From Crambe crambe (taxonomy: Eukaryota > Porifera > Demospongiae > Poecilosclerida > Crambeidae), in contig OZ004585.1 in NCBI GenBank assembly GCA_963924555.1, positions 7,642,556 through 7,706,555 of the forward strand: a DNA stretch of 64,000 bases, in the 5' to 3' direction. The notes beneath the pieces are model-generated. The model was not told the DNA's origin, did no database searches, and worked only from the letters and a program-made list of their open reading frames with translations. This document shows positions 17,254 through 61,773 of the stretch, one piece after another; positions within the stretch are counted from its first letter, which is position 1, and each line of letters starts with the position of its first letter. The position numbers and the translations under genes are program-made.

Positions 17254-19478
17254 CTATAGGACAATTACTGTAAAAAGGTTATCATAAAATTCAATGTGGC
17301 TAACCTTTAAAAACCAAACCTCTTGAGAGGGCTCATTTTTAAAATAAATTGTATGTTTATCCAACTGACACCTCATGAAAGTTTTCTTCACTCGCAGACG
17401 CAGATGGTCCTTCACCGGAGGATTGGCAGGGCTAGTGGTATGCTTGCACTTGCACTCGAATCCAAACTTATACTCTGCATTAGACTTGTAAGGCATTAGT
17501 CCAGTTACTCTCTTCAAGGAAGACTCAATCTTTTCAAATATGGAGGGACATTCTTGCTCACGTGTTGTTTCGGAATCAGAATTTAGTGAAAGTGCAATTG
17601 TAATATGTTTCGGACGCGATACAAGAATAACTTCATTATCGTCCACAAAAAATTTGATCATATTCTTCCAAACTTCGTCTTCAGCCAAGTCCCAGGTGGT
17701 TTCGTCTTCAGCCAATTTCCGGGCAGCCTGAGAGGCAATGTCAGCGATCATGTGGGAAAATATACCCACAGGCACGAAACCACAATCATATTGCAACATC
17801 AAAGGTGCTGGGTTTTGACTACAAGCCTCTATTGCCTGCAATGCAGCCTTCAGTTGACCAGCTGCAGCACTTTTTAGTATACATGGCATGAAGTAGGTTT
17901 TGCTGGTAGAATCATCTGGGATCACAGTCAAAATCTTGAGGTGTTCAAGGAGTTTCACTAATTCATCCACAGGGAGTTGATTCGATTCATCGCTGCTAGG
18001 TTGCATGGCCAGATCAAGTTCTTTCTTTGAAAACTTTCCCTTTTCCTTGAATTTCTTTGTTACGCCTGGACTAACTTTACTTGCATTAGTGAAGGTGTGT
18101 ATGATCAGCTGTGAGATACTGTCGAATATGACCTGCACATCACAAAAAACTTTATCTTCAATCACTTTAGGATAATACAAGATTAGTCCCATGTAGTGAT
18201 GCAGAAACCAAAGAGCACTCTTTAATTCTTTCGAGTCAATTCCAAGCTTCATTGCTTGTTTCTCGCAATCATCTAGAGACATAATACGCTTACTGTCGAT
18301 ATCCTTGCGCATATACAGGCTCAATATCAGCCAGGCTGCTGGGATCTCAATTTCTTCAAAGTTATCTTTGATTACTTTCTCCAAGACTTTTTGTTTCTCC
18401 TTTCTCTCATTATCATCACCTGTTTTATTATTCACTGTTAAAATTAGCTCATTTGTGTCTTTTCCAGCAGGTAATAGTATGCTATCATAGAAACTAGTGC
18501 TCTTAATTCTGCCTTCAAGGGATTTTTGCTTTTCTGATAATAGGAGGGATTTTTGTTTTTCTGATAATTCTTTATTTTCTGTTATCTCATCCAGGTGTGT
18601 ACCCACAAAGAGGGCTCTCGAACGAATAGGATACTCTTTAGATAAGCTTTGAATCTCATTCATGCTTTTAGTCAGTTCGTCCTTTTTAGGGTTGCTGAAG
18701 CATGTAATACTAGCAAGAATTTGGAACAGGGTTTCTTCCACGGTAATGGTGGATTCAACTTCATCGGTAGACTTACCGTCAGGATGGGTGTAACTTATCT
18801 TGAAAGGTTTATCCAGTGAATCAATTAGTCGGTGGTAGAGAAGGTAAAGAGAAGGACCCATAATGAGGGCAGACAACATTTCCAGAAACTCAGGCTGGCC
18901 ACCAGTGTCGGTATTGATCAGGAGGATAAGCTCATTGAGATCCTGTAGCAGGATCTTAATGTCATCAAGATCTTTGCTATTCCTGGTATCAGGAGGGGGC
19001 AACATATCTACAATATCTTCCCTTTTTACACGAGTATGTAGTTCACTGGCTGACAAAGAAGATTGCTTAGAAACTTTTGTTGCTGGATTGGTGCTGGTTG
19101 AATCCTTTGGGACCAATTGGCATTGGCTTAATAGTTGGCTAAGCATCTTGTCTTCTTTCATAAAGCCTTTGAGTTTGGACCACTCGGATGACCCTGAGAT
19201 TGTTGTCATATCACAACTTATATCCCTCATGTCACTGCGCTTGATGATAACCTGCCCTGCATATTCAACAACTCCTGTACTACGTGAAATATTTCCCTTT
19301 TCTTCTTCCTCCAGGAGATTCTTAATCTCTCCCATCAAGCGCTTTATCGTGGATGACTTTCCTGATCGAGGAATGCCAGCATGAACGAGCCTAGCCATCT
19401 TTATTTTCACTTTAATCTTCTCTTTGATGGCTTTATAATAAGCTTCTCTGTGCTGAGTATCACTTGGTGGTTCAACAC
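17254..19478 (-). CDS. Roc-COR (ROCO-type) GTPase, copy A
   Basis: One long minus-strand exon of about 740 codons. The N-terminal Ras-like (Roc) domain shows a P-loop GIPRSGKSS, a switch/G3 motif DTGGQPEF about 155 residues later, and G4 GTHLDE about 100 residues after that. The COR part follows, with a winged-helix-like stretch (PAAWLILSLYMRKD, then ALWFLHHYMGLILYYP). Roc-COR proteins are dimeric GTPase switches coupled to signalling domains. The exon has an acceptor (TACTTAG|GT at 19479), so a short upstream exon is likely; otherwise Met at 19398 (MARLVHAGIPRSGKS) may start it. A donor at 17304 (AAAG|GTTAGC) would join it to P/Q-rich exons. Unspliced, it ends at 17254. No frame lesion. It is near-identical to copy B except in the last ~150 residues. 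Confidence 0.75.
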
Positions 19479-19927
19479 CTAAGTATGTACAATAGAGCAA
19501 AGTATACATCTATACAGCTAGTAAGTAAACTACTTGTGGCATATCTAGTTCACACAGAGGATAAGGTTCAATAACTAGCTACACTTAAGGGGGCTCCGAC
19601 ATGACTACTGACATGACTACACGCAGCAGCATGCAACTAAGTATAAGCACTAATAACAGAATCATTATTGTGGAAAACGAGCTGAAAAACCACAAAAAGG
19701 TTAGGAATGCAACTTTGTACAGGTAGTACATGAACCATACAAGCAGGAAAAGTAAATAATTCATTCAATTGCATGTAGCTATAATAGCTAGTATAGGTAG
19801 CACTCCTGAAGAAAAATAATGTAGGCAATCTATAATTATTTCCAGCGCCAGATTCAGAGCCTATTCCAGAGCCAGTGTCACCGGAAGAGTCTGGCCCGAG
19901 CGAGACTAACTCCAGAGCTAGTCTGGG
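19479..19927. other. spacer between Roc-COR A and coiled-coil gene A
   Basis: No exon could be assigned with confidence. Any first exon of Roc-COR A should lie here or be fused to the next gene. Both strands have an open stretch at about 19840-20110, but only the minus frame from 20110 to 19928 fits a spliced terminal exon. Confidence 0.35.
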
Positions 19928-22900
19928 CTAGCAGACCTCCGGTACAAAGAGGTGTTGAGATCCAGATGAGTCCGAAGTGTAGCGTTGAGAGAGAGAGCCA
20001 GACTCTCCTGAGTCCAGGATCAGGGCCGCCTCTCCGTGGCATGAGCGATCACTCAACCAACGGTAGAAAGAATTGGCATCCTGCTGGATATAGTGGGTGG
20101 GGCTGGGGCTCTGTGTAGTAGTATTGACTTTCAGTGATGCTCACCATCTAAATGTACTATGAAGTCTGCAATATGATTGTATTTGTTGTAGTAAGAGATC
20201 AGTCATGAGCAAAGATTTGACCTTTAACCCATAATGACTGAGTCACTGGGTGTGATCCATTACTTCCATGGGAGGAGTATACTTGCAGATGCCCGTAAAT
20301 CCAGAAGAGTCCGTACTTGGCATGTTGTTTCCTCATGGTCTGGGGTAGACAGCTACGGATGGGATTAGGAAATCTTCAAAAACTGAAGTGATCAGCGCTT
20401 TCAGCAGTTCATTCTAAAGCTAGAAATTTGTGTATCTAGGAAGCTAGGTTATATAGAGACAATTCGATCCGTAGTTGTCTTATAAGCATACAAAGGAAGG
20501 ATGTGAAACTATTTTCAACACTGTAAGTTTAGCACAAAAAAAGAAGTATTAATTTTAGTCCTTTTAGCTTTAAGCGGTGCTAGCCTCTCGGCAACTGCCC
20601 CATTTTTCCTAGTTCTTGGGAGATCAGCGACTGTAGATAAGTCCTCCACTGTGATCTTTGTAGCTTCTCTGCAAGTGTCGGTAGTCTCGACATCAGTCCC
20701 TAGCAACCTGCAAAACAAGCGCGTGGGCGGGATGTCAGAGCCCCATTAATACTATAAAAATTGATCAGCAAAGATGGTGGGTGGAGTTTCGAACTCAGGT
20801 AAGAAATAATCTTGTATTCTAGCTGCCGAGGTTAGAGAATACACTGTAATTTTCAGACCACAGAAATCTGGAGCTATGCACAGTATGTAACTTTAGTAGT
20901 TTTCTAAATGATGCACATCGTATCAAAAAAGCATATGTGCATTGCTGATAGTCATTACATGAAACTATTGTACAAGTTCTATAGCACCAACCACTAGTGT
21001 GCTCGAGATCTAGGAAAGAGTGTTGGATTTTCTCTTTTCTTCTGTCTTTGCCATTTGTTGTTTCATCACACCTGGCAGAGTATGAAGTGCAAAATGGCTG
21101 GCCTTTTAGCACCTTGATGGATCTATATGCTCGAGCATGCTAAGTGATCTAATTGGTCCCGCAACAAGTCATACGTGCTAGTAAGTCCAAACCCTTTCCT
21201 CCCATAGGGAAATAGAGTAAAGGGTCGGCTATGCCAGAGAGTTTGCTAAAATCTATACCAACCAAAATTTGGCTTTTTGGCCTCAGCACCGGAGTGCCAA
21301 GGCACAGTGCTGAAGGCGACTATATATGATTAATAGCGCGCGCAATGATGTATATTGAGCATGCACTTGATGATAACTTGCCCAGCATATTCAGCAAATT
21401 CTGTACTAGGTGAAATAATTATTCCCAACATCTATATACAGAACAAGTGAAAGGAAAAGAAATAAAAAGGCCATGTAGGGTTAGTCTGTACTTTAATAGT
21501 TTGTCAACAAAAATCAAAATTATGCTGCCTTCAATAATAATCCCTACATCACTGCAAGCTGCTTTAATTGTTCATGTCAGTATAAAAGTGTTCTGCTTGG
21601 TTTAGGCAGTGATGTAGGGATTATTATTGAAGGCAGCATGATTTTGATTTTTGTTGACAGAAACTATTAAAGTACAGACTAACCCTACATGGCCTTTTTA
21701 TTTAGCATAAATTTTCACTTGTTTGTTTACTTGTTGTACGACCTAAAGGTTGAATATTTAAAAATAGCTGGTTGGTAACCACCCATAAACCTAAACCACC
21801 AACTGCAAGTTATGAGCACTTAATAGCCACAACTTACCATTATCACCAGAAGGAGGAGGGTTGGAGGAGGCAGAAAGAGGAGGGGGAGGTTCAGGGGGAG
21901 TAGCTAAAGGAAATGAATACAAAGATGAAGCATTCAGCAGCCATGACTCTTTCCCTCCACCACTAGTACCATATTCAGTTCTAACTTGAAGTACTAACTC
22001 ATTCCAATGCCAACAATGCTCAAGAATGGACAAAACAGCTTTAAATTTGGTCAAAATGGGTTATTACACACCTGGCACACTCCTTAGACAATGTTAACTG
22101 TCTCACAGAGAAAGAGAAAATTTTTCTGAGCAGAATGGTCCTTACTTTAGAACTATAGCACCTTCCCTTCAAAAGTTATACCCGTTTTTAACATTAATTA
22201 ATTTCACCTACTTTTAATTAACCACTAATTACTTCCTAAGGGCTATTAATTATATCGCTACTGAGCGAACACCGTTATTTTAGCTCTGGGCTATTATCTA
22301 TATTTAGAACATGTACTGCTACATTATCTAATTAGTGCTAAGTGGTTGAACATCTCTATACTTACAATCAAGTTGCCTGAGGGCTAATTCTCGCTTGATT
22401 AATTCTTTATCAATAGCAAGAATCACTTGTTTGCGGTTATTGATGTCTGTCTCCCTCCCCTGAACTCTCCTCTGCAGGGATTGTTTCCTATCTGAAGACA
22501 GGGAGGGCTGAGCAAGCTCCCTCTTCCACTCAGCTATCTCCTGCACACATGGAACACACATCAGGTATGGACTGGGCCACATGCCACGCCCTCATCACAC
22601 CACTGCTACACTCATCACTCACCTGTTCCCAGAGCTCTATCACCCTCTGACGGTATGCCTTCACCTGTGAGGAGTGAGAGAGAGAAGGTGAGACAACCAT
22701 ACAACCAACACACAAAGACAGCCATCATGCACCACAAAAAAAACCACCACACGCACACCATGTGAGCTACGGCTTCCAAACATGGAGAATGTGTAGAGTA
22801 AATCATGCTCTATAAGATCAAGGGGTCCATGAGTCACTATGCCCCGCCCACTTCCCTCGGCAGACTCGTGAGCGAGTACAATGGCCTGAAAAAAATTGAG

Positions 22901-23762
22901 CAGGGGTCTAGTATGCAAGCCATTTGAGCTGCAAACTCCAAAGGTGGAGAATCTTCGTTATTTTTAATGCTTAATAGAGTCTAGGGGTGCATGAGTTGAT
23001 GGACCTCACACACTTCCCCCGGCAGACATGTCAAGGAATTTTGCTGAGTCAGCATATTGCCATACAAATCGACAGGGGTCTAGTAGCCGGTATAGCAGAC
23101 ATGCCAGATGAGGTGTGCCCATGAAACATTGGGGCACATATGCTGGAGGTAGCTGCTTTAAGGTTGAGTAGTCCAGCATTCCAACAAACAACCCATCCCT
23201 GCATACGAGCACCCCCCATTCTTTATACACTGTTGCTATGTAATGGCCTACTGTTGCTATGGGCCTAAGGTGCTGGCAGTGACTGTCTAGAGGGTCTTGT
23301 TGGAGATACTGGACCAACACAACAACACAGCAGCTATTTTCATAATAACTCACCCGCTTTAACTCCTCAACAGTAGCATTCTGGACCCACTGTATGTGAG
23401 GAAACAAACCGAGTCACAACAGCCATGTTAGAATAGCAATGGACTAAGCTAGTAGTCTAGCTATAGAGAGACCTGGGACTAACACAACAACATATTAAAG
23501 CTTCAATTCAATGGCCATAGAATGAAATACAGCTGCCTTTAGTCGCGCGCCTACTAGCTATAATCTGCGCATGTGAACTAGAAACCATTAATCTTTAGTA
23601 ACAAACCTTTTCAAATATCGCCATCTCTTTCTTTACACCCCAATACTTGATCTCTAAAAATAGCTCTCATCCAAAAATGGAATTCAGCTCCTACTACCGA
23701 GCATCTAATATAAACCATGGAGGGGACCCTTAATATAGATTGTCACTTGGCCACTCCCTTTC
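19928..23762 (-). CDS. coiled-coil / proline-rich protein, copy A
   Basis: Minus-strand exons inferred from splice sites and conservation with copy B: 23716-23762, 23607-23653, 23354-23389 (WVQNATVEELKR), 22623-22664 (VKAYRQRVIELWEQ), 22366-22540, 21838-21903 and a terminal exon 19928-20110 (ends HLFVPEVC). Exon 22366-22540 is highly charged and helical (EIAEWKRELAQPSLSS, AIDKELIKRELALRQLD), a probable coiled coil; the next exon is Pro-rich (PPEPPPPLSASSNPPPSG). Phases agree from 23762 to 21838. The link to the terminal exon needs at least one unseen exon; the frame at 20515-20713 is a candidate. No known family recognised. The N-terminal exons differ strongly from copy B while the introns do not. 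Confidence 0.5.
20515..20713 (-). CDS. conserved open frame, candidate exon of the coiled-coil gene
   Basis: After a TTTTGCAG acceptor the minus strand stays open for about 65 codons (TDVETTDTCREATKITVEDL, then RKNGAVAERLAPLKAKR). Copy B (48280-48478) keeps the same frame with two replacements (R to K, K to E). A good donor is not obvious, and it starts in phase 2, so its place in the transcript is uncertain. Confidence 0.3.
21460..21703. repeat. palindromic foldback element, copy A
   Basis: Two ~97-bp inverted arms start AAATAAAAAGGCCATGTAGG and are separated by about 48 bp. The outer ends are near-perfect complements. A copy sits at 49391-49634 within the duplicated block, and a shorter diverged relative at 31413-31584. 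It lies in an intron of the coiled-coil gene. Confidence 0.85.
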
Positions 23763-26413
23763 CTGTATAGTTGTAAGGATACAATAACAGTGGATGAATG
23801 AGGAGCAATGGCTATATCAATGAAAGTTATCATTGAAATAATAATGAGACCAAACAGTTATCCCCAAAAGTATTCTCTTTTGGGACGTGTGTATCTTCTG
23901 CCTCCTAGGTACCTATTTGATGTCACAGTAATACTGTACTTCAAATTGGGCTTTTTAATTACATTCCAATTGCATTGTAGGGCTTTAAGTAGTCAGTAGT
24001 TGGTGGTCACTGGAATAGTGGAGCCTCATCCAGTGTTTATGACTCTGAAGTGCAATGATTATTATTTTGCTAAAAACTAATGACACTTAATTACATCAAC
24101 AAGTACATAGATCACTACAAAAACATTAAATTTGTACAAAAAATAAGATGTTTGAGTATGTTCTGTGCAACATTCGGTAATCCAATTCCAATATAATGAC
24201 AAAAATAATCTGATTCACACAAACAAAAATAATTGCTGTATGATTTATGAAAACAACAACAAAACCTTAATCAGTAGTGAACTGGAAAGTGTCTGAAGTT
24301 AGAGTCACGGGAGCATCTTGGATGAGAATTGGAGTACGATAACCATAAATAAAATCTAAATTAGACCATCACTCAATTGAAGTAATCACTGTATTCCACT
24401 TACTAAGTCTCTTTCTTGCATACAGTGAGAGTAAGGGAGTTGTGAAGTGATGAGTTCATAGATGACCACTCCAAACGAGTACACATCACAATATGGAGTG
24501 TAAGGGTCTGGTTCTGACATCCTAATCACTTCGGGGGCCTAAAAGTAACGAGTAATTTGAAGGGGGGATATCATCGGTGACATAGTAGTACCTCTCATTA
24601 CAGACATTTTAGGAACCACAGTGAAACCACAGGACAAACCTCTCCACAAAGGAAAATACACACTCGATAGAAAATAACCTCCGACCTCTCTATAAAGGAT
24701 GGGTCCCAAGTGTGTCCATTATTAGGAGGTTCCAAAGTGTCTTTATTAGAGAGGCTATGAGACTGACCATCCATAGAATACTGCCAGTCGGTTGCCTGAC
24801 TTTCTCTCCTTCTCTCCAGCGAGTCAATCCAAAGTATCATGCAGAAAGATGTCTGGGTGGGTGTGGTTAAGGGGTGTGGCTATCCCATATAAAATACAGA
24901 GTGAAAGATTCAAAGGATACTGTTTGATTTGAGATCTCTGTGGATGATATTCTTAGCATGCAAGTAACTGCAAATGAGGGATGGAATACTGTGAACATGG
25001 TGTAACATAATTAGAATCCGACTTACTCGACCCCCTGTAGCGATGTCTATGAGTTGGTACATCTCGAAGCGCGTCTCCATGACGTGAAGGTGTCTGTAGA
25101 GGATGGAGCCATCACACCACTGCATCACTATGGTGATCTGGGGGAGAGATGTCCAGCCCATGAACAAGAGAATGTTCGCATGCCTAGTCTTCCTGCAAAA
25201 GGATTGAGAAGTAACATTATAATTTTTTGTGGGAGAGAATTTTTTGGGAGTAGGCATGTCTGTACATAAAGGGGGTGGAGTTCTAACCTACAGTACCACC
25301 AACCTTAGCACGCCCATTTCATTCTTGAAGGCTAGTAACTGCTGCTCTGTGGGATTTGTCACGTTCAGTTTCCTCACAGCTACTGGCCCTGAAGGGATGT
25401 CAATGTCATGCATCATGCAACATTACCAAAACATTTCATAATCTGTGCATGAATGGATGGACTTACCATGCCATTTCCCCTTGAAGACAGTACCAAACGA
25501 TCCAGACCCTATCTTGTTCCCTATTTCTATGTCTTGGTAAGGGATTTCCCAAACATCTGTAGAATCTCGATTGGATTTCTAGAACATGAGGAATAAATCA
25601 GCTAAAGGGTCAAAGTTCAAGTGGGTGAATGCACCCCTTCTCAATGTGGACCCTGAATACAATAATTTCATACTTCATAAGGACACCTTTCTAATCAGGA
25701 CACCCCTCTGATCAGGACACCTCTCTAATCAGGACACTTTCGGAGGAGGTTATATCTTTATTTCAGGGATTACTTAATACACATGGTAGTCTCAGTTAGC
25801 CAGCACAAGAAGGAATCCACTTTAAACTGGTTATATAGTCATACTTTCTTTGTCTTTTCGTCCGTGGCAACCTTTCCTCTGGGTTTTCTAAGATGGGGCA
25901 ATGTGCTACTGTGGTAGGACGTGCTCCCTCCTCCTGAGTGTTGACTCCCAGTGACACTCCCATTAGTGGAAGTCACGTCAGTGTTGGAAGCAGAAGAGCC
26001 CTTGCTCGTCATCCCAAGAGCTCCAGGACTAGGACTAAGACTCTCTGACATGACAGAAAAATGTTCCCCAGATGAACTATGCCTAGAGAGTAATAACTAT
26101 TTTACATAAATAAAAAATAACTTTTTCCTACCTTTCGAGAGATTATCTCTTTGTTCGTTCACTGGTCCCCATTGTTAAGTTTCCAGAGTTTTTTCTCTCC
26201 GAGGGTGGGGTGGACACAATTGTCCATGGAACTGTGACGACTGTTAACACTGTGAGGGCAGGGCATTCTGGTCTAGCGAGGGAGATGACGAGGAGGAATG
26301 GTGCAAACATGTGGTTGCTCCACAGATAACATGAAGGGGCATCCCCAGGAATGTAGTTTGCCTCAGAGCCTGCAGCTGATACTCATGGTGTACTCAGTAT
26401 ACTCATCCCAGAA

Positions 26414-30040: not shown

Positions 30041-30440
30041 ATGAGAGGTGTCTCCATTTCAGGGGGTTGGAATAGAGTGGTTCCACTGTATACAGAGGTG
30101 TCTCCATTTCATGGGGTTGGAATAGAGGGGTTCCACTGTATACAGAGGTGTCTCCATTTCAGGGGGTTGGAATAGAGGGGTTCCACTGTATACAGAGGTG
30201 TCTCCATTTCAGGGGGTTGGAATAGAGGGGTTCCACTGTATACAGAGGTGTCTCCATTTCAGGGGGTTGGAATAGAGGGGTTCCACTGTATACAGAGGTG
30301 TCTCCATTTCAGGGGGTTGGAATAGAGGGGTTCCACTGTATACAGAGGTGTCTCCATTTCGGGGGGTTGGAATAGAGGGGTTCCACTGTATACAGAGGTG
30401 TCTCCATTTCAGAAGAGGAGTTCCACTGCATACAGTTGAT
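30041..30440. repeat. 50-bp minisatellite, about 8 units
   Basis: The unit TACAGAGGTGTCTCCATTTC…GGTTCCACTGTA has period 50, with unit starts at 30041 (partial), 30091, 30141, 30191, 30241, 30291, 30341 and 30391. Units are nearly identical. Its words (TTCCACTGTA, GAGGTGTC, TCATTTCAGGGG) are those of the dispersed MITE family, so it probably grew by tandem amplification of one such end. Confidence 0.95.
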
Positions 30441-31259: not shown

Positions 31260-32926
31260 CTAACCTTTTGTTCTTTTCGATACTTTTGGTGTCAAGATTT
31301 TCCAAACACAAATCACAATCAGAATCAGAACCACAATTACAATTGGCAACAGAATCTTATACACAGTACCACCTGTAACATAATTATTTGAGAGAAGAAA
31401 GTGAAACTACGTAAATAAAAGGCCATGTAGGGTCAACTATAGCAGTTGCTGTGAATAAACATCAAATTTTATGCTGCCTTCAATAATAAGTCTACATCAC
31501 TGGCAACACTTTTAAACCGACATGAACTACTAAAGCATGCAGCTTGGTGGGAGGCAGCAGACTAACCCTACATGGACTTTTATTGCATAATTTTCCCCCC
31601 TTCATCTACAGTGCTGTCATGTACATGAACTATTTTGAGAGTATGTGTGCGTGAGTATGAATGAGAATAATAGGTAGCTACCATCTGAAAGAATAGTAAC
31701 GGAAAAAGTGAGAATCCAGGAATAGAATTTTAGGCAAAATTTCGAGCATAATCTAAGGGCGTATCGAGCCGCGAAGCGGCGAGAGAGTGTAGACGGTGAA
31801 ATAATATATTTAGCTACAGTTTACTGCAGTAAACGGACATATGCGGGCAGAGCCTACCACATGCTAGGCTATTTTTAGTAACATTTTACACTATGCCGTC
31901 TATATATAAAGCATTGGCAGTTGCATGCCCTCTCGCCGCTTTGCAGCTCGATACACCCTTGAGAGGATCCTATCCAGATCCCCAAGATCACCTCAGTAAA
32001 TTCACTGATGAAGAAAGTTGCTGTGGAAATTTATCCATCAGGCAGAATGCTCGGATTTTATACAAGTAGCTATGATCCACACACTGGTTATTTCCAATGA
32101 GCTATAGTCATAGTCACAACTTCTACTTCTAGCACAAGCACCTGCCAACTCGCTTAAGTCAGCTAGGTATTATAGTCAACAATCTCTACCTATGGGCAAT
32201 ATGACCTGCATGTCACATACCTGTGATCATGAAGGTCATATCAAACCTTGTGGCAGTGAAGTTAGTAGTTACATTAAATTGATGCATCAGTATTCTTTGC
32301 TCAAAGAGATCACTTTCAAATTCCTCTTCAATATTATAGACTCTCTTATCAGAAAAATAAAGTGCTAATTCCATATCATATGTACAGAGGGTGAAATTGG
32401 GTTCACACAAGTTTGCTGCTGTTCAGCAATTTCGTTTTCATCGGGATATGAAGTAAAAACTGGCTGCTCTACATAATTAAAAAGAAAATACTAGAATAAA
32501 TCATTAGACTTCACTAACCCCTCAAAAATAACGTACAGTAGCCATGAATATTAAGTCTTTCCGTGTGTTGCTGATTATGAATAATGTCATACACTTCACA
32601 TAACGTGGAAGTAAGGCTCAATCTAGCAAGGGTCTTATCTTTCTACCTATAAAATTTGAACATTAGCTAAAAGTTGCAAGCATTGGTTTCTATTCTTAAA
32701 GTTAATAGATAAGCTTCAAGTGGAAAAAAGGTTGCTTATTACATTCAGTTGACAGTTGCATCCAAGGTCTGATGCTGCATGGAGTCTTGGATTAAAAAGA
32801 AATAATTCAGTCATCACACATCTTACTTCTTGATTGGATTCCACCATTTGTACATACATCTTCCAGTCCACATCTTCGACCAAAACAAGCAACAGCTCCT
32901 TGAAGTATTAATATCCACACTATCAT
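31260..32926 (-). CDS. small single-pass membrane protein, unknown family
   Basis: Four minus-strand exons: 32827-32926, 32537-32638, 32221-32415, 31260-31372 (510 nt, 169 aa). All introns are phase 1, as is usual for extracellular modules. Exon 1 starts at Met 32926 with a signal peptide (MIVWILILQGAVACFG). The ectodomain of about 110 residues has a few cysteines and potential N-glycosylation sites (NVT, NFT) near FNVTTNFTATRFDM. The last exon encodes a transmembrane helix (ILLPIVIVVLILIVICVW) and a short basic tail ending KVSKRTKG. No domain recognised. The model is too spliced to show as one open frame, but phase, signal peptide and membrane helix agree. Confidence 0.6.
31413..31584. repeat. 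diverged palindromic element
   Basis: Ends AAATAAAAGGCCATGTAGGG and CCCTACATGGACTTTTATT; the interior CTGCCTTCAATAATAAG matches the foldback element at 21460-21703. It lies in the last intron of the small membrane-protein gene. Confidence 0.65.
31755..31960. repeat. MITE with GC-rich inverted ends
   Basis: The left end AAGGGCGTATCGAGCCGCGA and the right end are ~32-bp imperfect inverted repeats (right end is the complement of AAGGGTGTATCGAGCTGCAA). About 206 bp, with the interior GACGGTGAAATAAT / CTATGCCGTC. It also lies within the last intron of the small membrane-protein gene. Confidence 0.75.
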
Positions 32927-42600: not shown

Positions 42601-45600
42601 AGTTTGAGGTTCCAGTATTTTTAAATTTCTAGGTCTTGTGACTCGTGGTTTGTTTGTGTAACATATTCAATTGGTGAGCGAAGCAGTTGGTGAAAGTCAT
42701 TTGTACTTCAACTTCTTAGGCTAAGATATTGCTGTCAGGATGAAGTGGTGGTGCAGCTGCATACACAGGAGGCTGTACCACCAGTACTTAGAAAGCCAAG
42801 CGCCTACAATCCACCTAACACCTCTATGACAAAATGCTGTAGAAAGCAATAAACTCTAGCTGTTTGTTGCTAAGTGTTGTGGGTGCATGCATATTAAATG
42901 TGACATACGTTATGTAAATCCCAATTTGCATGAATAAGAGGTAAGCTTGCTTCGCTTGCCAACTACCCAACAGCATGAAACCTTAAGGCACCCTGCAAAC
43001 CAGCATACCTTTGCAGTATTTTTTAGCAATTGTACGAGCAAGATCTCCATCCAGCGGCTCCACAGCTTTGGCTAGAGTTCTCCAACTTGGCATTCCAAAT
43101 TTAGTTGCATGATTCTTCTTAAGCCAAACAACTATGGCATCATTGAGAGCCATCTCAGCATTTCCTGGCATACGGTTTGTTTTGATTGTTCCAATAGTAC
43201 CCTGCTTGACTCCAAGATTTTGTGCTAGGGTCTCCCACTGGCCAGCGAGATCACCTACTGCCTTCATCACAACTTGTATATCATCTATTCCTGGATTTGA
43301 AAATAAATATATAATTTGTGGGTGTAGCTAAACATATAGATTTCACACCCAATACACGTGCACTTTATAAGACGTAGGATTGAAGAGCTCAGTTAGAGAA
43401 ACCCAATGCACAGAGCTAGCTGTCCAACCAGTAAAAAAAAAGCAACTGTGGAGCTGGGGTAATAGCCTGCCCTCTCAAACTGTGATACCAAACCTAAATC
43501 CTTGTTGGGTCACTTGCACCATTAATTCTGTTGCCTCTTTCACTGTAAAATTGTTATACTTGAGCAGTAATGAGTATTACTTAATATCTGATCATCAATA
43601 TCCTCAAGAATTGCCATCCAATCACGATCATCTGCAATAATAAATGTAATTTTGATTCTATAAAATTATTTTCCACAGGTTTTCGGGGACTAAGATGATT
43701 AACTTACCCTCAATTCCAGCAAATGAATCAATCTGAGCTTTTCCTGAGGGAGAACATAGCAGTAAAGCTAACTATGTGGCTACTTATTTAATTGATATCC
43801 CTTGACCCATGCCACACACAGCCATATATACATGCATTAATAATATTGTGACCTGTTTGTTTTGAGGGAGGGAGAGGTATATGGCTAAAAGCTCTTTGTG
43901 ACTTGTTTTGTCTAGTGCTATGGCAAAGTGATTGCATGTGGCATAGATTGTGATTTGTAGCATATAGTGGAGACATTAAAGTCTGAAGATTAACCACATC
44001 TTTTATCCATGTCATTAATGCTTGCATCATGGAAAGGCTATGTACACACTAACTAGTACACAGAGCCACCAGACTGGGCTGTAGCTACCTTGAACTCCGG
44101 ACATGGGTTGTTGTTGAGGAATCTGTGGTGGTTGTTGGAATGGTACTCGTGGCTGCGTTCTAAGTAAGGGTTGGGATTGATGCTGGTATACATCACCTAG
44201 ACATAGTGCATAACAGTCAGTATACACTTGTGAACACAGCCCTATTACATGTACACGAGGACATCAGCACATACTATGCATTATGCATATACCTGGAACT
44301 CTGGGTTGTCTAGGTTGTTGCTGTGCAGGCATGTATGCCTGTGGTATCATATGTGGTTGTTGGTGTGGTACTTGTGGCTGCATTCCAAATACTTGTTGCT
44401 GGTATACATAACCTAGACAGCATAACAGTCATGAACACATGTACATGAGGACATGCCCTTAAGCACATAGAAAACTTCACTCTACCTAATACACTATATA
44501 TATATATGCATACCTGGAATACTAGGTTGTCTGGGTTGTTGCTGTGCACACAGTGGTATCATATGTGGTTGTTGGTGAGCCTGTAGCTGCATTCCAAATA
44601 CTTGTTGTTGGGGTTGGGACTGATGCTGGTTTACGTCACCTAGACATAGTGCATAACAGTCAGCATACATAGTGTACTGAATAGGCCTTAACACAACCAT
44701 GATGATATGTTCTTCAGCGCATAGAAATAGCTAATTATGCATACCTGGACTACTGGGCTGTCCCAACTGGGGGTGCGATGAGAGTTGTTGTGGAGGCATC
44801 TGTGGAAAGCACGCATCACAAGTCAATAGCTGCAGTGAAAATGTTGTTTTATTAATGTGGCTTACCTTTGAAAACCAAACACTTTGAGTGGATTTAAAAT
44901 GAACTATAATATCTTCATCCAACTGACACCTCATGAAATCATCTTCCCCCTCTCCCAGACACAGATGGTCCTTCACTGGAAGACTGGCAGGGCTGGTGGC
45001 ATGTTTGCATTCAAATCCAAACTTATACTGTGCATTAGACTTGTAAGGCATACGTTCAGTTACTCTATTCAAGGAAGATGTAATCTTCTCGACTATGGTG
45101 GGACATTCTTGCTCGTTTGATGTTACCGAATGAAAATTTCGTGAAAATGCAATTGTAATATGTGTCGGACATGAAACAAGAATAACTTTATTCTCTTTCA
45201 CTAAAAATTTGATCATATTCTTCCACATTTTATCTTTAGACAATTTCCACTGAGAGGCAATGTCAGCAATCATGTGGGAAAATATACCCACAGGCACAAA
45301 ACCACAATCATATTGCAACATCAAAGGTGCTGGGTTTTGACTACAAGCCTCTATTGCCTGCAATGCAGCCTTCAGTTGACCAGCTGCAGCACTTTTTAGT
45401 ATACATGGCATGAAGTAGGTTTTGCTGGTAGAATCATCTGGGATCACAGTCAAAATCTTGAGGTGTTCAAGGAGTTTCACTAATTCATCCACAGGGAGTT
45501 GATTCGATTCATCGCTGCTAGGTTGCATGGCCAGATCAAGTTCTTTCTTTGAAAACTTTCCCTTTTCCTTGAATTTCTTTGTTACGCCTGGACTAACTTT

Positions 45601-45955
45601 ACTTGCATTAGTGAAGGTGTGTATGATCAGCTGTGAGATACTGTCAAATATGACCTGCACATCACAAAAAACTTTATCTTCAATCACTTCAGGATAATAC
45701 AAGATTAGTCCCATGTAGTGATGCAGAAACCAAAGAACACTCTTTAATTCTTTCGGGTCAATTCCAAGCTTCATTGCTTGTTTCTTACAATTATCTAGAG
45801 ACATAATACGCTTACTGTCGATATCCTTGCGCATATACAGGCTCAATATCAGCCAGGCTGCTGGGATCTCAATTTCTTCAAAGTTATCTTTGATTACTTT
45901 CTCCAAGACTTTTTGTTTCTCCTTTCTCTCATTATCATCACCTGTTTTATTATTC

Positions 45956-46445
45956 ACCATTAAAATTAGCTCATTTGTATCATTCCCAGCAGATAATAGT
46001 ATGTCATTATAGAAACTGGTGCTCTCGATTCTGCCTTGGAGGGATTCTTGCTTTTCTGATAATAGGAGGGATTTTTGCTCTTCTGATAATTTTTTATTTT
46101 CTGTTATTTCATCCAGGTGTGTACCCACGAAGAGGGCTCTCGAACGAATAGGATACTCTTTAGATAAGCTTTGAATCTCATTCATGCTTTTAGTCAGTTC
46201 ACCATTAAAATTAGCTCATTTGTATCATTCCCAGCAGATAATAGTATGTCATTATAGAAACTGGTGCTCTCGATTCTGCCTTGGAGGGATTCTTGCTTTT
46301 CTGATAATAGGAGGGATTTTTGCTCTTCTGATAATTTTTTATTTTCTGTTATTTCATCCAGGTGTGTACCCACGAAGAGGGCTCTCGAACGAATAGGATA
46401 CTCTTTAGATAAGCTTTGAATCTCATTCATGCTTTTAGTCAGTTC
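45956..46445. repeat. 245-bp tandem duplication inside Roc-COR B
   Basis: The segment starting ACCATTAAAATTAGCTCATT at 45956 is repeated exactly from 46201. Copy A has a single unit. 245 is not a multiple of three, so the coding frame is lost at the junction (stop at 46194-46196, codons LILMVN-stop). The two units look identical, so the event is very recent or an assembly artefact. Confidence 0.9.
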
Positions 46446-47712
46446 TTCCTTTTTAGGGTTGCTGAAGCATGTAATACTAGCAAGAATTTGGAACAGGGTT
46501 TCTTCCACGGTAATGGTGGATTCAACTTCATCGGTAGACTTACCGTCAGGATGGGTGTAACTTATCTTGAAAGGTTTATCCAGTGAATCAATTAGTCGGT
46601 GGTAGAGAAGGTAAAGAGAAGGACCCATAATGAGGGCAGACAACATTTCCAGAAACTCAGGCTGGCCACCAGTGTCGGTATTGATCAGGAGGATAAGCTC
46701 ATTGAGATCCTGTAGCAGGATCTTAATGTCATCAAGATCTTTGCTATTCCTGGTATCAGGAGGGGGCAACATATCTACAATATCTTCCCTTTTTACACGA
46801 GTATGTAGTTCACTGGCTGACGAAGAAGATTGCTTAGAAACTTTTGTTGCTGGATTGGTGCTGGTTGAATCCTTTGGGACCAATTGGCATTGGCTTAATA
46901 GTTGGTTAAGCATCTTGTCTTCTTTCATAAAGCCTTTGAGTTTGGACCACTCGGATGACCCTGAGATTGTTGTCATATCACAACTTATATCCCTCATGTC
47001 ACTGCGCTTGATGATAACCTGCCCTGCATATTCAACAACTCCTGTACTACGTGAAATATTTCCCTTTTCTTCTTCCTCCAGGAGATTCTTAATCTCTCCC
47101 ATCAAGCGCTTTATCGTGGATGACTTTCCCGATCGAGGAATGCCAGCATGAACGAGCCTAGCCATCTTTATTTTCACTTTAATCTTCTCTTTGATGGCTT
47201 TATAATAAGCTTCTCTGTGCTGAACATCACTTGGTGGTTCAACACCTAAGTATGTACAATAGAGCAAAGTATACATCTATACAGCTAGTAAGTAAACTAC
47301 TTGTGGCATATCTAGTTCACACAGTCAGAGGATAAGGTTCAATAACTAGCTACACTTAAGGGGGCTCCGACATGACTACTGACATGACTACACGCAGCCA
47401 GCCAGCGTGCAACTAAGTATAAGCACTAATAACAGAATCATTATTGTGGAAAACGAGCTGAAAAACCACAAAAAGGTTAGGAATGCAACTTTGTGCAGGT
47501 AGTACATGAACCATACAAGCAGGAAAAGTCATAATAGTAAATAATTTATTCAATTGCATGTAGCTATAATAGCTAGTATAGGTAGCACTCCTGAAGAAAA
47601 ATAATGTAGGCAATCTATAATTATTTCCAGCGCCAGATTCAGAGCCTATTCCAGAGCCAGTGTCACCGGAAGAGTCTGGCCCGAGCGAGACTAACTCCAG
47701 AGCTAGTCTGGG

Positions 47713-50700
47713 CTAGCAGACCTCCGGTACAAAGAGGTGTTGAGATCCAGATGAGTCCGAAGTGTAGCGTTGAGAGAGAGAGCCAGACTCTCCTGAGTCC
47801 AGGATCAGGGCCGCCTCTCCGTGGCATGAGCGATCACTCAACCAACGGTAGAAAGAATTGGCATCCTGCTGGATATAGTGGGTGGGGCTGGGGCTCTGTG
47901 TAGTAGTATTGACTTTCAGTGATGCTCACCATCTACATGTACTATGAAGTCTGCAGTATGATTGTATTTGTTGTAGTAAGAGATCAGTCATGAGCAAAGA
48001 TTTGACCTTTAACCCATAATGACTGAGTCACTGGGTGTGATCCATTACTTCCATGGGAGGAGTATACTTGCAGATGCCCGTAAATCCAGAAGAGTCCGTA
48101 CTTGGCATGTTGTTTCCTCATGGTCTGGGGTAGACAGCTACGGATGGGATTAGGAAATCTTCAAAAACTGAAGTGATCAGCGCTTTCAGCAGTTCATTCT
48201 AAAGCTAGGAATTTGATATAGAGACAATTCGATCCGTAGTTGTCTTATAAGCATACAAAGGAAGGATGTGAAACTATTTTCAACACTGTAAGTTTAGCAC
48301 AAAAAAAGAAGTATTAATTTTAGTCCTTTTAGCTTCAAGCGGTGCTAGCCTCTCGGCAACTGCCCCATTTTTCCTAGTTCTTGGGAGATCAGCGACTGTA
48401 GATAAGTCCTCCACTGTGATCTTTGTAGCTTCTTTGCAAGTGTCGGTAGTCTCGACATCAGTCCCTAGCAACCTGCAAAACAAGCGCGTGGGCGGGATGT
48501 CAGAGCCCCATTAATACTATAAAAATTGATCAGCAAAGATGGTGGGTGGAGTTTCGAACTTGGGTAAGAAATTCTAGCGGCCGAGGTTAGAGAATACACT
48601 GTAATTTTCAGACCACAGAAATCTGGAGCTATGCACAGTATGTAACTTTAGTAGTTTTCTAAATGATGCACATCGTATCAAAAAAGCATATGTGCATTGC
48701 TAATAGTCATTACATGAAACTATTGTACAAGTTCTATAGCACCAACCACTAGTGTGCTCGAGATCTAGGAAAGAGTGTACTCGCAAGATGCAGTTAGCCT
48801 AGCATAGACATTCCTTTACCATATTTCTCTACGGGATTGAGGAAAGGGTCTGGACTTATTATTAGCACACACACTTATGCAGCAGGAATGTAGTGCTTGT
48901 TCACATTACATCATTTTAAACCACAAAAACTGCAATTGAGGTCTTGAGTAACTTGGATTTTCTCTTTTCTTCTGTCTTTGCCATTTGTTGTTTCATCACA
49001 CCTGGCAGAGTATGAAGTGCAAAATGGCTGGCCTTTTAGCACCTTGATGGATCTATATGCTCAAAGTGATCTAATTGGTCCCGCAACAAGTCATACGTGC
49101 TAGTAAGTCCAAACCCTTTCCTCCCATAGGGAAATAGAGTAAAGGGTCGGCTATGCCAGACTACTGAGAGAGTTTGCTAAAATCTATACCAACCAAAATT
49201 TGGCTTTTTGGCCTCAGCACCGGAGTGCCAAGGCACAGTGCTGAAGGCGACTATATATGATTAATAGCGCGCGCAATGATGTATATTGAGCATGCACTTG
49301 ATGATAACTTGCCCAGCATATTCAGCAAATTCTGTACTAGGTGAAATAATTATTCCCAACATCTATATACAGAACAAGTGAAAGGAAAAGAAATAAAAAG
49401 GCCATGTAGGGTTAGTCTGTACTTTAATAGTTTGTCAACAAAAATCAAAATTATGCTGCCTTCAATAATAATCCCTACATCACTGCAAGCTGCTTTAATT
49501 GTTCATATCAGTATAAAAGTGTTCTGCTTGGTTTAGGCAGTGATGTAGGGATTATTATTGAAGGCAGCATGATTTTGATTTTTGTTGACAGAAACTATTA
49601 AAGTACAGAATAACCCTACATGGCCTTTTTATTTAGCATAAATTTTCACTTGTTTGTTTACTTTTTGTACGACCTAAAGGTTGAATATTTAAAAATAGCT
49701 GGTTGGTAACCACCCATAAACCTAAACCACCAACTGCAAGTTATGAGCACTTAATAGCCACAACTTACCATTATCACCAGAAGGAGGAGGGTTGGAGGAG
49801 GCAGAAAGAGGAGGGGAAGGTTCAGGGGGAGTAGCTAAAGGAAATGAATACAAAGATGAAGCATTCAGCAGCCATGACTCTTTCCCTCCACCACTAGTAC
49901 CATATTCAGTTCTAACTTGAAGTACTAACTCATTCCAATGCCAACAATGCTCAAGAATGGACAAAACAGCTTTAAATTTGGTCAAAATGGGTTATTACAC
50001 ACCTGGCACACTCCTTAGACAATGTTAACTGTCTCACAGAGAAAGAGAAAATTTTTCTGAGCAGAATGGTCCTTACTTTAGAACTATAGCACCTTCCCTT
50101 CAAAAGTTATACCCGTTTTTAACATTAATTAATTTCACCTACTTTTAATTAACCACTAATTACTTCCTAAGGGCTATTAATTATATCGCTACTGAGCGAA
50201 CACCGTTATTTTAGCTCTGGGCTATTATCTATATTTAGAACATGTACTGCTACATTATCTAATTAGTGCTAAGTGGTTGAACATCTCTATACTTACAATC
50301 AAGTTGCCTGAGGGCTAATTCTCGCTTGACTAATTCTTTATCAATAGCAAGAATGTCTTGTTTGTTGTTATTGATCAATGTCTCCCCCCTCTGAACCCTC
50401 TCCTGCAGGGATTGTTTCCTATATGAAGACAGGGAGGGCTGAGCAAGCTCCCTCTTCCACTCAGCTATCATCTGCACACATGGAACACACATCAGGTATG
50501 GACTGGGCCACATGCCACGCCCTCATCACGCCACTGCTACACTCATCACTCACCTGTTCATTGTGCTTTATCTGATAGACTGCCTTCAACTGTGAGGAGT
50601 GAGAGAGAGAAGGTGAGACAACCATACAACCAACACACAAAGACAGCCATCATGCACCACAAAAAAAACCACCACACGCACAGCATGTGAGCTACGGCTT

Positions 50701-51683
50701 CCAAACTTGGAGAATGTGTAGAGTAAATCATGCTCTATAAGATCAAGGGGTCCATGAGTCACTATGCCCCGCCCACTTCCCTCGGCAGACTCGTGAGCGA
50801 GTACAATGGCCTGAAAAAAATTGAGCAGGGGTCTAGTATGCAAGCCATTTGAGCTGCAAACTCCAAAGGTGGAGAATCTTCGTTATTTTTAATGCTTAAT
50901 AGAGTCTAGGGGTGCATGAGTTGATGGACCTCACACACTTCCCTCGGCAGACATGTCAAGAATTTTGCTGAGTCAGCATATTGCCATACAAATTGACAGG
51001 GGTCTAGTAGCCGGTAGCAGACATGCCAGATGAGGTGTGCCCATGAAACATTGGGGCACATATGCTGGAGGTAGCTGCTTTAAGGTTGAGTAGTCCAGCA
51101 TTCCAACAAACAACCCATCCCTGCATACGAGCACCCCCCATTCTTTATACACTGTTGCTATGTAATGGCCTACTGTTGCTATGGGCCTAAGGTGCTGGCA
51201 GTGACTGTCTAGAGGGTCTTGTTGGAGATACTGGACCAACACAACAACACAGCAGCTATTTTCATAACAACTCACCTCCTCTAACTCCTCAATAGTAAGC
51301 TTCTGGAGCCTCTGTATGTGAGGAAACAAACCGAGTCACAACAGCCATGTTAGAATAGCAATGGACTAAGCTAGTAGTCTAGCTATAGAGAGAGACTTGG
51401 GACTAAAGTAACACAACAATATATTACGATTCAATGGCCATTATAGAATGAAATACAGCTGCCTTTAGTCGCGCCTACTAGCTATAATCTGCGCATGTGA
51501 ACTAGAAAACCATTAATCTTTAGTAACCAACCTCTTCAAAAAATGTCGACATCTCTTTCTTTACGCCCCAATCCTTGATCTCTAAAAATAGCTCTCATCC
51601 AAAAATGGAATTCAGCTTGAGCATCTAATTATAAACCATGGAGGGGACCCTTAATATAGATTGTCACTTGGCCACTCCCTTTC
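47713..51683 (-). CDS. coiled-coil / proline-rich protein, copy B
   Basis: Exons matching copy A: 51637-51683, 51532-51581 (one codon longer), 51276-51311 (RLQKLTIEELEE), 50554-50589 (LKAVYQIKHNEQ, two codons shorter), 50297-50471 (MIAEWKRELAQPSLSSYRK…), 49769-49834 (Pro-rich) and terminal exon 47713-47895. Length differences are all multiples of three, and frames stay open in both copies, so both are probably functional. Introns are nearly identical to copy A, but N-terminal exons differ at many residues. Function unknown; a coiled-coil binding surface is inferred. The exon between 49769 and 47895 is not resolved. Confidence 0.5.
48779..48955. other. ~180-bp segment present only in copy B
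   Basis: At 48778 copy B inserts sequence beginning ACTCGCAAGATGCAG and ending GAGTAACT. Copy A (about 21022) runs straight from GAAAGAGTGT to TGGATTTTC. No inverted ends or coding frame seen. It is either an insertion in B or a deletion in A. Confidence 0.65.
49391..49634. repeat. palindromic foldback element, copy B
   Basis: Counterpart of 21460-21703 with the same ~97-bp inverted arms. Only a few substitutions separate the two. Confidence 0.85.
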
Positions 51684-52454
51684 CTGTATAGTTGTAAGGA
51701 TACAATAACAGTGGATGAATGAGGAGCAATGGCTATATCGATGAAAGTTATCATTGAAATAATAATGAGACCAAACAGTTATCCCCAAAAGTATTCTCTT
51801 TTGGGACGTGTGTATCTTCTGTCTCCTAGGTACCTATTTGATGTCACAGTAATACTGTACTTCAAATTGGGCTTTTTAATTGGCTTTAAGTAGTAAGTAG
51901 TTGGTTGTCACTGAAATAGTGGAGCCCCACCCAGTGTTTATGACTCTGAAGTGCAATGATTATTATTTTGCTAAAAACTCATGACACTTAATTACATCAA
52001 CAAGTACATAGATCACTACAAAAATATTAAATTTGTACAGAAAATAAGATGTTTGAGTAAAAGAAATGTTCTGTGCAACATTCGGTAATCCAATTCCAAT
52101 GTAATGACAAAAATAATCTGATTCACACAAAAAAAAATAATTGCTGTATGATTTATGAAAACAACAAGAAAATCTTAATCAGTAGTGAACTGGAAAGTGT
52201 CTGAAGTTTGAGCATCTTGGATGAGAATTGGAGTACGTGGGGATTTAGAGCAATGTCTATGAGTTGGTACATCTCAAAGCGTGTCTCCATGACGTGAAGG
52301 TGTCTGTAGAGGGTGGAGCCATCACACCACTGCGTCACTATGGTGATCTGGGGGAGAGATGTCCAGCCCATGAATAGGAGAATGTTCGCATGCCTAGTCT
52401 TCCTGCAAAAGGATTGAGGAGTAACATTATAATTTTTTGTGGGAGAGAATTTTT

Positions 52455-52665
52455 ATGGTTCCAAAAGTAGCAAATAAAAATGAGGCTACTTTGAACGGTA
52501 CACATTCATACACAAGTGGCTTAGAAGTATATGTATATTCATTGAATTGGAATGCAATCAGTGTCTATGATTCCAATAATGGTGGTCCCATGACCAACAC
52601 GTTCTTTTATTCATATCCTCCTTTATCACGTCCAAAGTGCACAAGGGAGTTGTACATAAAGGGGG
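52455..52665 (+). other. ~210-bp insertion with an open frame
   Basis: Absent from the same intron of RAF copy A (about 25240). The plus strand is open across the insertion (MVPKVANKNEATLNGTHSYT, then WNAISVYDSNNGGPMTNTFF), with composition like an extracellular domain and NGT as a possible glycosylation site. It looks like a captured exon or processed fragment. The source gene is not recognised. Confidence 0.4.
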
Positions 52666-54088
52666 TGGAGTTCTAACCTACCACCAACCTTAGCACACCC
52701 ACTTCATTCTTGAAGGCTAGTAACTGCTGCTCTGTAGGATTTGTCACATTCAGTTTCTTCACAGCTACTGGCCCTGAAGGGATATCAATGTCATGCATTA
52801 TGCATACGTAATCTGAAAATACTGTGCATGACTGGATGGACTTACCATGCCATTTCCCCTTGAAGACAGTACCAAACGACCCAGACCCTATCTTGTTCCC
52901 TATTTCTATGTCTTGGTAAGGGATTTCCCAAACATCTGTAGAATCTCGATTGGATTTCTAGAACATGAGGAATAAAACACCCTCAGCTAAAGTGTCAAAG
53001 TTCAAGTGGGTGAATGCACCCCTTCTCAATGTGGATACCCTGAATTGTATCATAAGGACACCTCTCTAATCAGGACACTTTCGGAGGAGGTTATATCTTT
53101 ATTTCAGGGATTACTTAATACACATGGTAGTCTCAGTTAGCCAGCACAAGAGGCTTTTACTTATCAGAGAGAGGAATTCCACTGTAAACTGAATATATAA
53201 TCATACTTTCTTTGTCTTTTCGTCCGTGGCGACCTTTCCTCTGCGTTTTCTAAGATGGGGCAATGTGCTACTGTGGTAGGACGTGCTCCCTCCTCCCGAG
53301 TGTTGACTCCCAGTGACACTCCCATTAGTGGAAGTCATGTCAGTGTTGGAAACAGAAGAGCCCTTGTTCGTCATCCCAAGAGCTCCAGGACTAGGACTAA
53401 CACTCTGACATGACAGAAAAATGTTCCCCAGATGAACTATGCCTAGAGAAAATATAATATTTAATAAATAAATAAATAAATCCTTCCATGATTAAAATTA
53501 AGAACTTTACCTTTCCAGAGATGATCTCTTTGTTCGTTCACTAGTCCCCATTGTTAAGTTTCCAGAGTTTTTTCTCTCTGATCGAGGGTGGACACGATTG
53601 TCCATGGAACTGCGATGATCGTTACGCTCATCACTGTTGTTGACACCATGTGCCTGGAGGTGGTCCAAGCTACTGCTACTAGCCAATGGACAGCAGAGAG
53701 GGCAAATAAATTAAATAATTTTGGTTGGATGTCCTGCACCCTGTGGGCTAATTAGATAATTAATTGGCGGGTTATTTCCTTATAAGGAAATTGTTAACTG
53801 GTGGATTGATTCCTTATAAGGAAATTGACTATGTCCTAATTGACTGGATTGAGAGGTGTGACCTACCACTCTTTTATGTTTTCTGGATCCACTCCTGCTC
53901 CCACTGGAAACAGAACCGATCCCGTTGTCCACCTGTGAGGGTGGGGCATTCTGGTCCAGCGAGAGAGAGGACGTGGAGGAATGGCGCAGCATATGGTTGC
54001 TCCGCAGATAACGAGAAGGGACGTCCCCAGGAATGTAGCTAGCCTGCAGCTGATACTGGTGGTGTACTCAGTATACTCATCCCAGAAC

Positions 54089-61701: not shown

Positions 61702-61773
61702 TTTTAAGGAAGATATAGCAACTTTTATTTTTTCAGCTAAAAAAATGCAATTTATAGGCAAGTATCTAAAAAG

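Follow-up and report, generated by a model that had tools for sequence, protein, structure and literature searches.

Two gene copies with hypervariable exons

The stretch of DNA analysed here (the window; 64,000 nucleotides, C8:7642556-7706555 of the 143-Mb Crambe crambe assembly GCA_963924555.1, where C8 is contig OZ004585.1) holds two copies, A and B, of a gene whose small exons differ strongly between the copies while the introns stay nearly the same. Both copies lie on the minus strand. Each comprises five short exons, here called a to e, of which b, c and d are hypervariable; an open reading frame (ORF) of ROCO (Roc-COR) GTPase type lies downstream and a partial RAF-type kinase copy upstream (Table 1). 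GT-AG splice sites can be read by eye at the exon borders.

Copy A (21023-24338) was aligned directly with copy B (48953-52237), and the differences were counted in an alignment of the whole family. The differences cluster within the small exons, the same ones that an earlier note on this sequence, made without database searches, had named. Of 247 sites in exons b, c and d, 35 differ, compared with 6 of 1075 in the adjoining introns b-c, c-d and d-e (odds ratio 29 by Fisher's test, p = 6e-21), so that realignment exon by exon does not find intron divergence equal to exon divergence. In exon b, 9 of 36 nucleotides differ, and all seven changed codons are replacing. Exon c differs at 10 of 36 aligned nucleotides and by a two-codon deletion in B; its six changed codons are all replacing and three more are touched by the gap. 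In exon d the 16 differences in 175 nucleotides fall in 10 codons, nine replacing and one silent. Introns b-c, c-d and d-e differ at 5 of 686, 1 of 82 and 0 of 307 sites. The near-identical introns, the wholly amino-acid-changing exon b, the two-codon difference with replacements in exon c and, closely, the count for exon d that the earlier note had reported are thus borne out.

The note had also treated the whole of 23607-23653 as a coding exon. Only 23607-23624 appears to be coding: an ATG at 23624-23622, which we infer to be the start codon, opens this part, and the stretch before it is far less variable in an alignment of 20 copies, so that the remainder of exon a is probably 5' untranslated. 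Several copies on contigs C17 and C18 have, at the same position, what can be read as a short exon with an ATG.

Table 1. Features of the two copies and their surroundings (positions counted from the first letter of the window)
Feature	Position	Strand	Remarks
Homogenised block common to type I copies	21776..24338	-	match borders recur; type II shares about 21830-23768
Copy A exon a, probable first coding exon	23607..23653	-	coding part 23607-23624 (MAIFEK); ATG and donor visible
Copy A exon b, 12 codons, hypervariable, start of helix 1	23354..23389	-	GT-AG by eye
Copy A exon c, 14 codons, 7 hypervariable amid largely fixed framework codons	22623..22664	-
Copy A exon d, 58 codons and 1 nucleotide: helix 1 end, turn, helix 2	22366..22540	-
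Copy A exon e, proline-rich linker, 201 nucleotides, phase 1-1, skippable in frame	21838..22038	-	splice sites by eye
Copy A left intron arm of exon c	22665..22756	-	nearly the same in C8, C17 and C18 copies
Copy A right intron arm of exon c (intron c-d)	22541..22622	-	0-7% between clusters
Copy B exon a, coding part (MSTFFEE)	51532..51552	-	sequence and alignment
Copy B exon b	51276..51311	-	sequence and alignment with A
Copy B exon c, two codons shorter	50554..50589	-	sequence and alignment with A
Copy B exon d	50297..50471	-	sequence and alignment with A
Copy B exon e	49769..49969	-	sequence and alignment with A
ORF of 751 amino acids downstream of copy A	17257..19509	-	COR-A E 5.7e-7, 30 bits (cut-off 35.3)
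Counterpart ORF of copy B, broken	44851..47276	-	two matches, one containing TGA
Partial RAF-type kinase copy, upstream	24389..25578	-	Pfam kinase matches

Distribution of the family in the genome

A genome search with exon d of copy A gave 24 matches from 23 candidates, all of them scored: 20 at 86-100% identity on C8 and C15, one at 74% (locus L021) and three short pieces on C20. The C20 pieces (L022-L024, C20:3788089-3792912) are tandem repeats of about 277 nucleotides containing pieces of 38-48 nucleotides that resemble the end of exon d. The 10 kb around each of the 20 copies were used for comparison. Their mean pairwise difference is 0.024 in introns, 0.069 in exon a, 0.198 in exon b, 0.244 in exon c, 0.097 in exon d and 0.030 in exon e, the last measured on 21840-22058, an interval about 20 nucleotides too long. 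Taken together, exons b, c and d exceed the introns in pairwise difference by a factor of more than three in every one of the 190 pairs.

When intron b-c of copy A was used as query and the best 40 of 80 candidates were scored, the matches included 14 on C17 (76-79%) and four on C18 (74%). Eight C17 copies differ on average by 0.280 in exon c, 0.162 in exon b and 0.078 in exon d, while the figures for introns b-c and c-d are 0.019 and 0.008. The number of amino acid states per exon-d codon is correlated between the C8/C15 and the C17 copies (rho 0.60, p 8e-7), and seven of the eight most variable exon-d codons of C17 rank among the top 10 of C8/C15; in the C17 copies it is mostly the same codons that vary. 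From C18 two copies were read, too few for a test. The further paralogues sought thus show the pattern of A and B, and its presence in 190 of 190 pairs and its recurrence in the C17 cluster rule out chance or an accident of two copies. All 30 exon-d sequences read have open frames.

Variable codons and silent sites

Among the 84 codons of exons b, c and d, 23 carry at least four amino acid states. At these codons position 1 differs in 0.52 and position 2 in 0.45 of the pairs, and the residues E, R, W, L, N and Y are enriched. The four-fold sites of the framework codons differ in 100 of 3546 pair comparisons. Expressed as Jukes-Cantor rates, positions 1 and 2 of the variable codons reach 0.773, the exon four-fold sites 0.0275 and the introns 0.016; the variable-codon rate is 28 times that of exon four-fold sites (bootstrap 17-82) and 48 times that of introns (39-61), ratios that describe these 23 codons, selected for their variability, and not whole exons, for which the proportions of nonsynonymous (pN) and synonymous (pS) differences are 0.157 and 0.050. 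At sites so chosen, the replacement rate exceeds the silent rate, as expected of diversifying selection. Since the framework four-fold sites are near intron level and the 23 codons differ in about half of the pairs, strong diversifying selection, which the earlier note had proposed, is the best-supported reading.

Exon c shows the arrangement most clearly. With single exceptions it reads variable, AAG, GCA, variable, variable, CAG, variable, variable, ATA, GAG or AAG, variable, variable, GAA, CAG. Codon c4 has 11 states in 20 copies and 15 in 30, and 29 of the 30 exon-c sequences, drawn from three clusters, are distinct. Within the variable codons themselves the four-fold sites are quiet: 1 of 196 differs in the 20 C8/C15 copies and, for exon c, 4 of 68 in the 30 copies. 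Some third bases are frozen with positions 1 and 2 free (C in 30/30 at c11, T in 29/30 at c5). A at the third base is scarce (7 of 455 variable against 359 of 1214 framework codons), and it is the commonest third base in none of the 23 variable columns against 18 of 61 framework columns (p 0.002). Framework adenines are retained, GCA for example in 30/30. Unspecific hypermutation of the exons is ruled out by the quiet four-fold and framework sites, and adenine-directed mutagenesis by the kept framework adenines.

Neighbouring variable codons are nearly unlinked. The mean z at rank distance 1 is 0.39 (22 pairs, one above 2.5), and 7 of all 253 codon pairs exceed z of 2.5, with b4-b5 the strongest; with 20 copies the power of the test is limited. 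These data bear on cassette-like replacement, which the earlier note had offered as an alternative, that is, shuffling of exons or parts of exons from a pool of donors. It would find support in the few linked pairs, in the identity of L025 and L033 in exon c combined with different exons b and d, in an exon-d tail motif common to L035, L036 and L039, which belong to different subtypes, and in the fact that the block of A and B adjoins a different ROCO gene. However, nearly every exon-c sequence is distinct, and adjacent codons are mostly unlinked, so that the exchanged tracts would need a length of about one codon. Shuffling therefore fits less well than selection, and we consider it very unlikely.

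Homogenisation of the block and the arms of exon c

The sequence around exon c is shared across five contigs. Between clusters most 30-base windows of the introns differ by about 5-50%; the two arms of exon c, some 90 bases upstream and 80 bases downstream, differ by 0-7%, and within the 60 bases immediately upstream there is almost no difference (two C8, eight C17 and two C18 copies compared). A piece of 46 nucleotides that spans the border between exon c and intron c-d occurs at 76 places with at most three mismatches, 57 of them exact (control 0): 17 on C8, where L029 is counted twice, 2 on C15, 10 on C16, 15 on C17 and 32 on C18. The 48 nucleotides before exon c occur at 73 places, 70 of them exact (control 0). 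At L029 (C8:7728431-7728525) the end of exon c and its donor are tandemly duplicated by 49 nucleotides, which gives two donor sites. Exon c itself differs by 0.244 within C8, 0.280 within C17 and 0.263 between them, and by more, 0.318-0.357, in comparisons involving the two C18 copies.

In the isolated paralogue L021 the arms are 78-81% identical to those of copy A and the other compared intron parts 67-71%. Strict constraint on the arms is unlikely because they have diverged outside the clusters, and homogenisation explains them better, although some constraint may act. The Roc-COR exon points the same way: its four-fold divergence is 0.087 (0.019-0.133) against 0.016 (0.003-0.026) for the block introns of the same 15 copies, about five times as much, indicating that the block is younger or was more recently copied than the gene around it. 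The quiet introns partly reflect this homogenisation, in which gene conversion would be the process at work.

The excess of Roc-COR divergence over that of the introns could also be taken to mean that the exon variants are old and that only the introns were homogenised, in which case moderate selection would suffice. Old exons would carry old silent changes, but the silent sites of the exons are quiet as well, both in the framework (0.028 at four-fold sites) and in the variable codons, which makes this account improbable.

Just past the 3' end of the block lies an inverted-repeat element of about 280 nucleotides (21442-21723 and 49373-49654), found in part also at 31412-31537.

Predicted structure of the variable exons

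For exon d, AlphaFold with 30 family sequences predicted a helix at residues 2-9, a turn and a second helix at 16-57, with a mean predicted local distance difference test (pLDDT) score of 97.5. On this model, exons a to c would likely lengthen helix 1 to about the length of helix 2, giving a full hairpin. Variability follows a helical period in both helices: 99 degrees in helix 1 (p 0.004) and 97 degrees in helix 2 (p 0.02 for d16-d57 and p 5e-5 over the variable half d19-d42). The variable direction lies 48-75 degrees from the hydrophobic direction; the two faces are thus distinct and not opposite. Pfam found no leucine-rich repeat (LRR) in the open stretches holding exons d and e, exons b and c lying outside the scan.

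Downstream ROCO exon and probable gene structure

In 18 of the 20 C8/C15 copies, exons a to d and the proline-rich exon e are followed, about 0.1 kb further on, by a long open Roc-COR exon. In L031 this exon has a COR-A match of 35.5-35.7 bits, just above the cut-off of 35.3, and by eye an immunoglobulin-like (Ig-like) end; many other family loci also exceed the cut-off, so that the COR part expected of a ROCO (Roc-COR) GTPase is present in some copies. The Roc signature is fainter, with weak P-loop matches that all stay below the cut-offs (MMR_HSR1 0.0096). The motifs GLPGSGKST, DTGGQ and GTHKD, which we take to be GTPase G motifs, are invariant in 15 copies. Comparison of the exon with the sequences in PDB gave no match at E 0.01, and a structure model reached a pLDDT of 30. 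In 15 of the 18 copies (L036, L042 and L043, with open stretches below 700 amino acids, were left out, and A and B carry another ROCO exon), columns 1-700 have pS 0.151 and pN 0.033, a ratio of 0.22; the exon is under purifying selection. Columns 701-800, the Ig-like part, give a ratio of 0.62.

Beyond the long exon of L031 there are a second Ig-like exon, a Death-like exon and then a tail with CSLL before the stop, which resembles a prenylation box. At the place corresponding to the Death-like exon, Pfam Death matches exceed the cut-off beside L030, L039, L040 and L043, and in several clusters many copies have an exon like that of L031 nearby (best 150 of 326 candidates scored). Because strand, order, spacing and phase agree, exons a to d appear to be spliced with the Roc-COR and later exons into one transcript.

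Copies A and B have a block like that of the other copies, yet the ORF downstream of A is only 23-24% identical to that of the other 18 copies and represents a different ROCO subfamily. It has a Roc match of 0.035 at residues 604-630, away from the expected place. It is a possible 3' partner of the hypervariable exons. The counterpart of copy B contains a perfect tandem duplication of 248 nucleotides (45953-46200 and 46198-46445), and its interruption may be a real break or an assembly error.

Partial copies of a RAF-type kinase accompany the family in the window (24389-26246 and 52249-53624). Several type I copies have a more complete RAF upstream, which ends near the block border; in A and B the kinase is truncated. 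Fusion of the kinase to the hypervariable exons is unlikely, since the type I kinase can be traced to its C-terminus near that border and since different parts of it are missing from A, B and the type II copies. As far as visible in the DNA, the upstream copy would be a hitchhiking gene or pseudogene that is not fused.

The genome has at least 149 COR-A matches above the cut-off (best 150 of 339 candidates scored), clustered on C1, C3, C5, C8, C9, C11 and other contigs, and at least 150 Death matches above it (150 of the best 150 of 965 candidates). The expansion of ROCO genes in this genome is very large. The same genome gave 14 Wnt matches, which point to an animal since Wnt is not known outside animals, and two marginal innexin matches.

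Two other repeated features were seen in the window: an array of tandem repeats of about 50 nucleotides at 30044-30435, which translates to a repeated peptide, and a further pair of about 1.4 kb at 55611-57074 and 61699-63084, 87% identical.

Selection and the alternatives

We conclude, with a probability of roughly 0.7, that A and B come from a ROCO family that has expanded and probably serves recognition, in which local conversion is combined with very strong diversifying selection along one face of a helix. According to this explanation, A and B would be members of a large animal family of ROCO GTPase genes whose first exons, a to d, specify a helical hairpin at the N-terminus; some 23 codons on one side of the hairpin's two helices would have been diversified separately in each copy by very strong selection for amino acid change. 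The DNA of the block, introns included, would be kept nearly identical by local gene conversion, around exon c even across contigs. Each copy would then bear its own binding surface for recognition, and binding may be relayed by way of the Roc-COR switch to the parts that the Ig-like and Death-like exons encode, leading to cell death or alarm. The part played by amino acid selection is argued from change that follows the reading frame, quiet silent sites, open frames and the helical period. Self/non-self or host-pathogen recognition may be involved, with an output of death or alarm as proposed for other large families of non-self recognition genes.

Several observations weigh against this explanation. 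Selection alone would not predict that homogenisation is strongest around the most diverse exon, and the highest rate ratios are those of codons picked for their variability. Three features fit selection less easily: the unlinked neighbouring codons, the few differences between codons for the same amino acid and the scarcity of A at the third base. In a star-tree model of selection, run on a coarse time grid, same-amino-acid codon differences are expected at 0.08-0.57 over 15 settings (0.08-0.33 at omega of 30 or more) against 7 of 428 observed, a count that shared ancestry could lower; A at the third base is expected at 2-19% (2-6% at omega of 30 or more) against 0 of 208 observed. Selection would not favour G-to-A changes at the third base, most of which are silent. 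The distance in intron b-c is weakly correlated with that in exon d (r 0.25, p 0.01). The copies read cover 8 of the 14 C17 places, 2 of the 4 C18 places and no C16 copy. Some domain assignments are weak as well: COR-A falls below the cut-off in L035 (31.4 bits) and in copy A, the second Ig-like exon of L031 gives an I-set match of E 0.004 and 17.6 bits, below the cut-off of 23.7, and the Death-like exon of L031 has no Pfam Death match.

In addition, not every copy is intact. The Roc-COR exon has stops in 4 of 18 copies, and type II exon e has stops or frameshifts in several. The earlier statement that all indels are in frame holds within exons b, c and d, but not at the border of exon c in L034, where a deletion of 7 nucleotides at the exon end takes out the donor. 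Together with the truncated RAF copies, these breaks are what relaxed constraint or pseudogene decay in the exons would lead one to find. Relaxed exons should, however, equal introns, whereas exons b, c and d differ four to ten times as much, and every exon-d sequence is open, so we regard decay as extremely improbable.

The features that fit selection less easily would be accounted for by a dedicated process that rewrites the block and randomises chosen codons one by one while the arms stay identical; its effect, achieved by some eukaryotic mechanism, would resemble that of a diversity-generating retroelement. The little-linked neighbouring codons, the frozen third bases at c11 and c5, the scarce third-base A and the near-identical arms flanking the most diverse exon all agree with such a process. 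Change nevertheless tracks the reading frame and the helical period, as it would under selection, the conserved framework adenines speak against adenine mutagenesis of the known retroelement type, and exons b and d are hypervariable without arms of this kind. We hold it unlikely. Were it real, the ROCO family would be continually rewritten from the shared sequence around exon c by a codon-precise system of the germ line, a proposition to which we give little credence; it is similarly doubtful that each of the more than 70 arm-bearing places would randomise, on its own, the same set of codons with stop-avoiding third bases, yielding an inherited, library-like repertoire of recognition helices.

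Comparison with known systems

The family has partial parallels in known systems. In the zinc-finger arrays of PRDM9, homogenised sequence carries hypervariable contact codons, within tandem repeats of one DNA-binding gene; here there are many gene copies and a non-repeated hairpin. Exons diverge more than introns between duplicates in gene pairs for snake venoms and opsins, that is, secreted toxins or light receptors, whereas here a grid of codons is common to tens of copies. Diversity-generating retroelements produce codon-wise diversity between identical flanks in an adenine-directed manner; the conserved framework adenines of the sponge family differ from this, template and enzyme not having been searched for. 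In the titles and opening lines of abstracts of open-licence papers, preprints not included, we found no animal ROCO family with hypervariable coiled-coil exons.

The ROCO genes of brown algae and the NWD genes of a fungus are the nearest in kind. For brown algae, PMC11378527, which cites Zambounis et al. 2012, describes ROCO genes with one LRR per 72-bp phase-2 exon, shuffled and alternatively spliced, under diversifying selection and proposed to form an immune repertoire. The likeness consists in ROCO GTPases with a variable recognition part in small exons under diversifying selection, and the difference in a predicted helical hairpin without an LRR match, shared intron arms, and Ig-like and Death-like exons downstream in the sponge (PMC11378527). 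For het-d and het-e of Podospora, PMC1805685 reports NWD genes of non-self recognition whose WD40 repeats are in concerted evolution within and between loci, with four codons diversifying. The two families share concerted evolution with few surface codons per unit under diversifying selection, and differ in that the sponge has a non-repeated hairpin spread over small exons with quiet introns (PMC1805685).

Implications

Judged from its sequence, the hypervariable block looks like part of an undescribed family of recognition proteins with individual binding surfaces. If this is true, it would be a recognition repertoire built around a helical hairpin carried by a ROCO GTPase, a scaffold of which the literature searched holds no animal example. 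Compared with the known ROCO and NWD systems, the family adds intron arms that are nearly identical across contigs, and its combination of extreme local homogenisation with extreme codon diversity raises the question of how conversion and diversification share about two hundred bases. The grid of codons is a ready and testable list of candidate contact residues. ROCO proteins are known mainly from LRRK2 and DAPK, and the family would offer a natural experiment on how such proteins take up signals.

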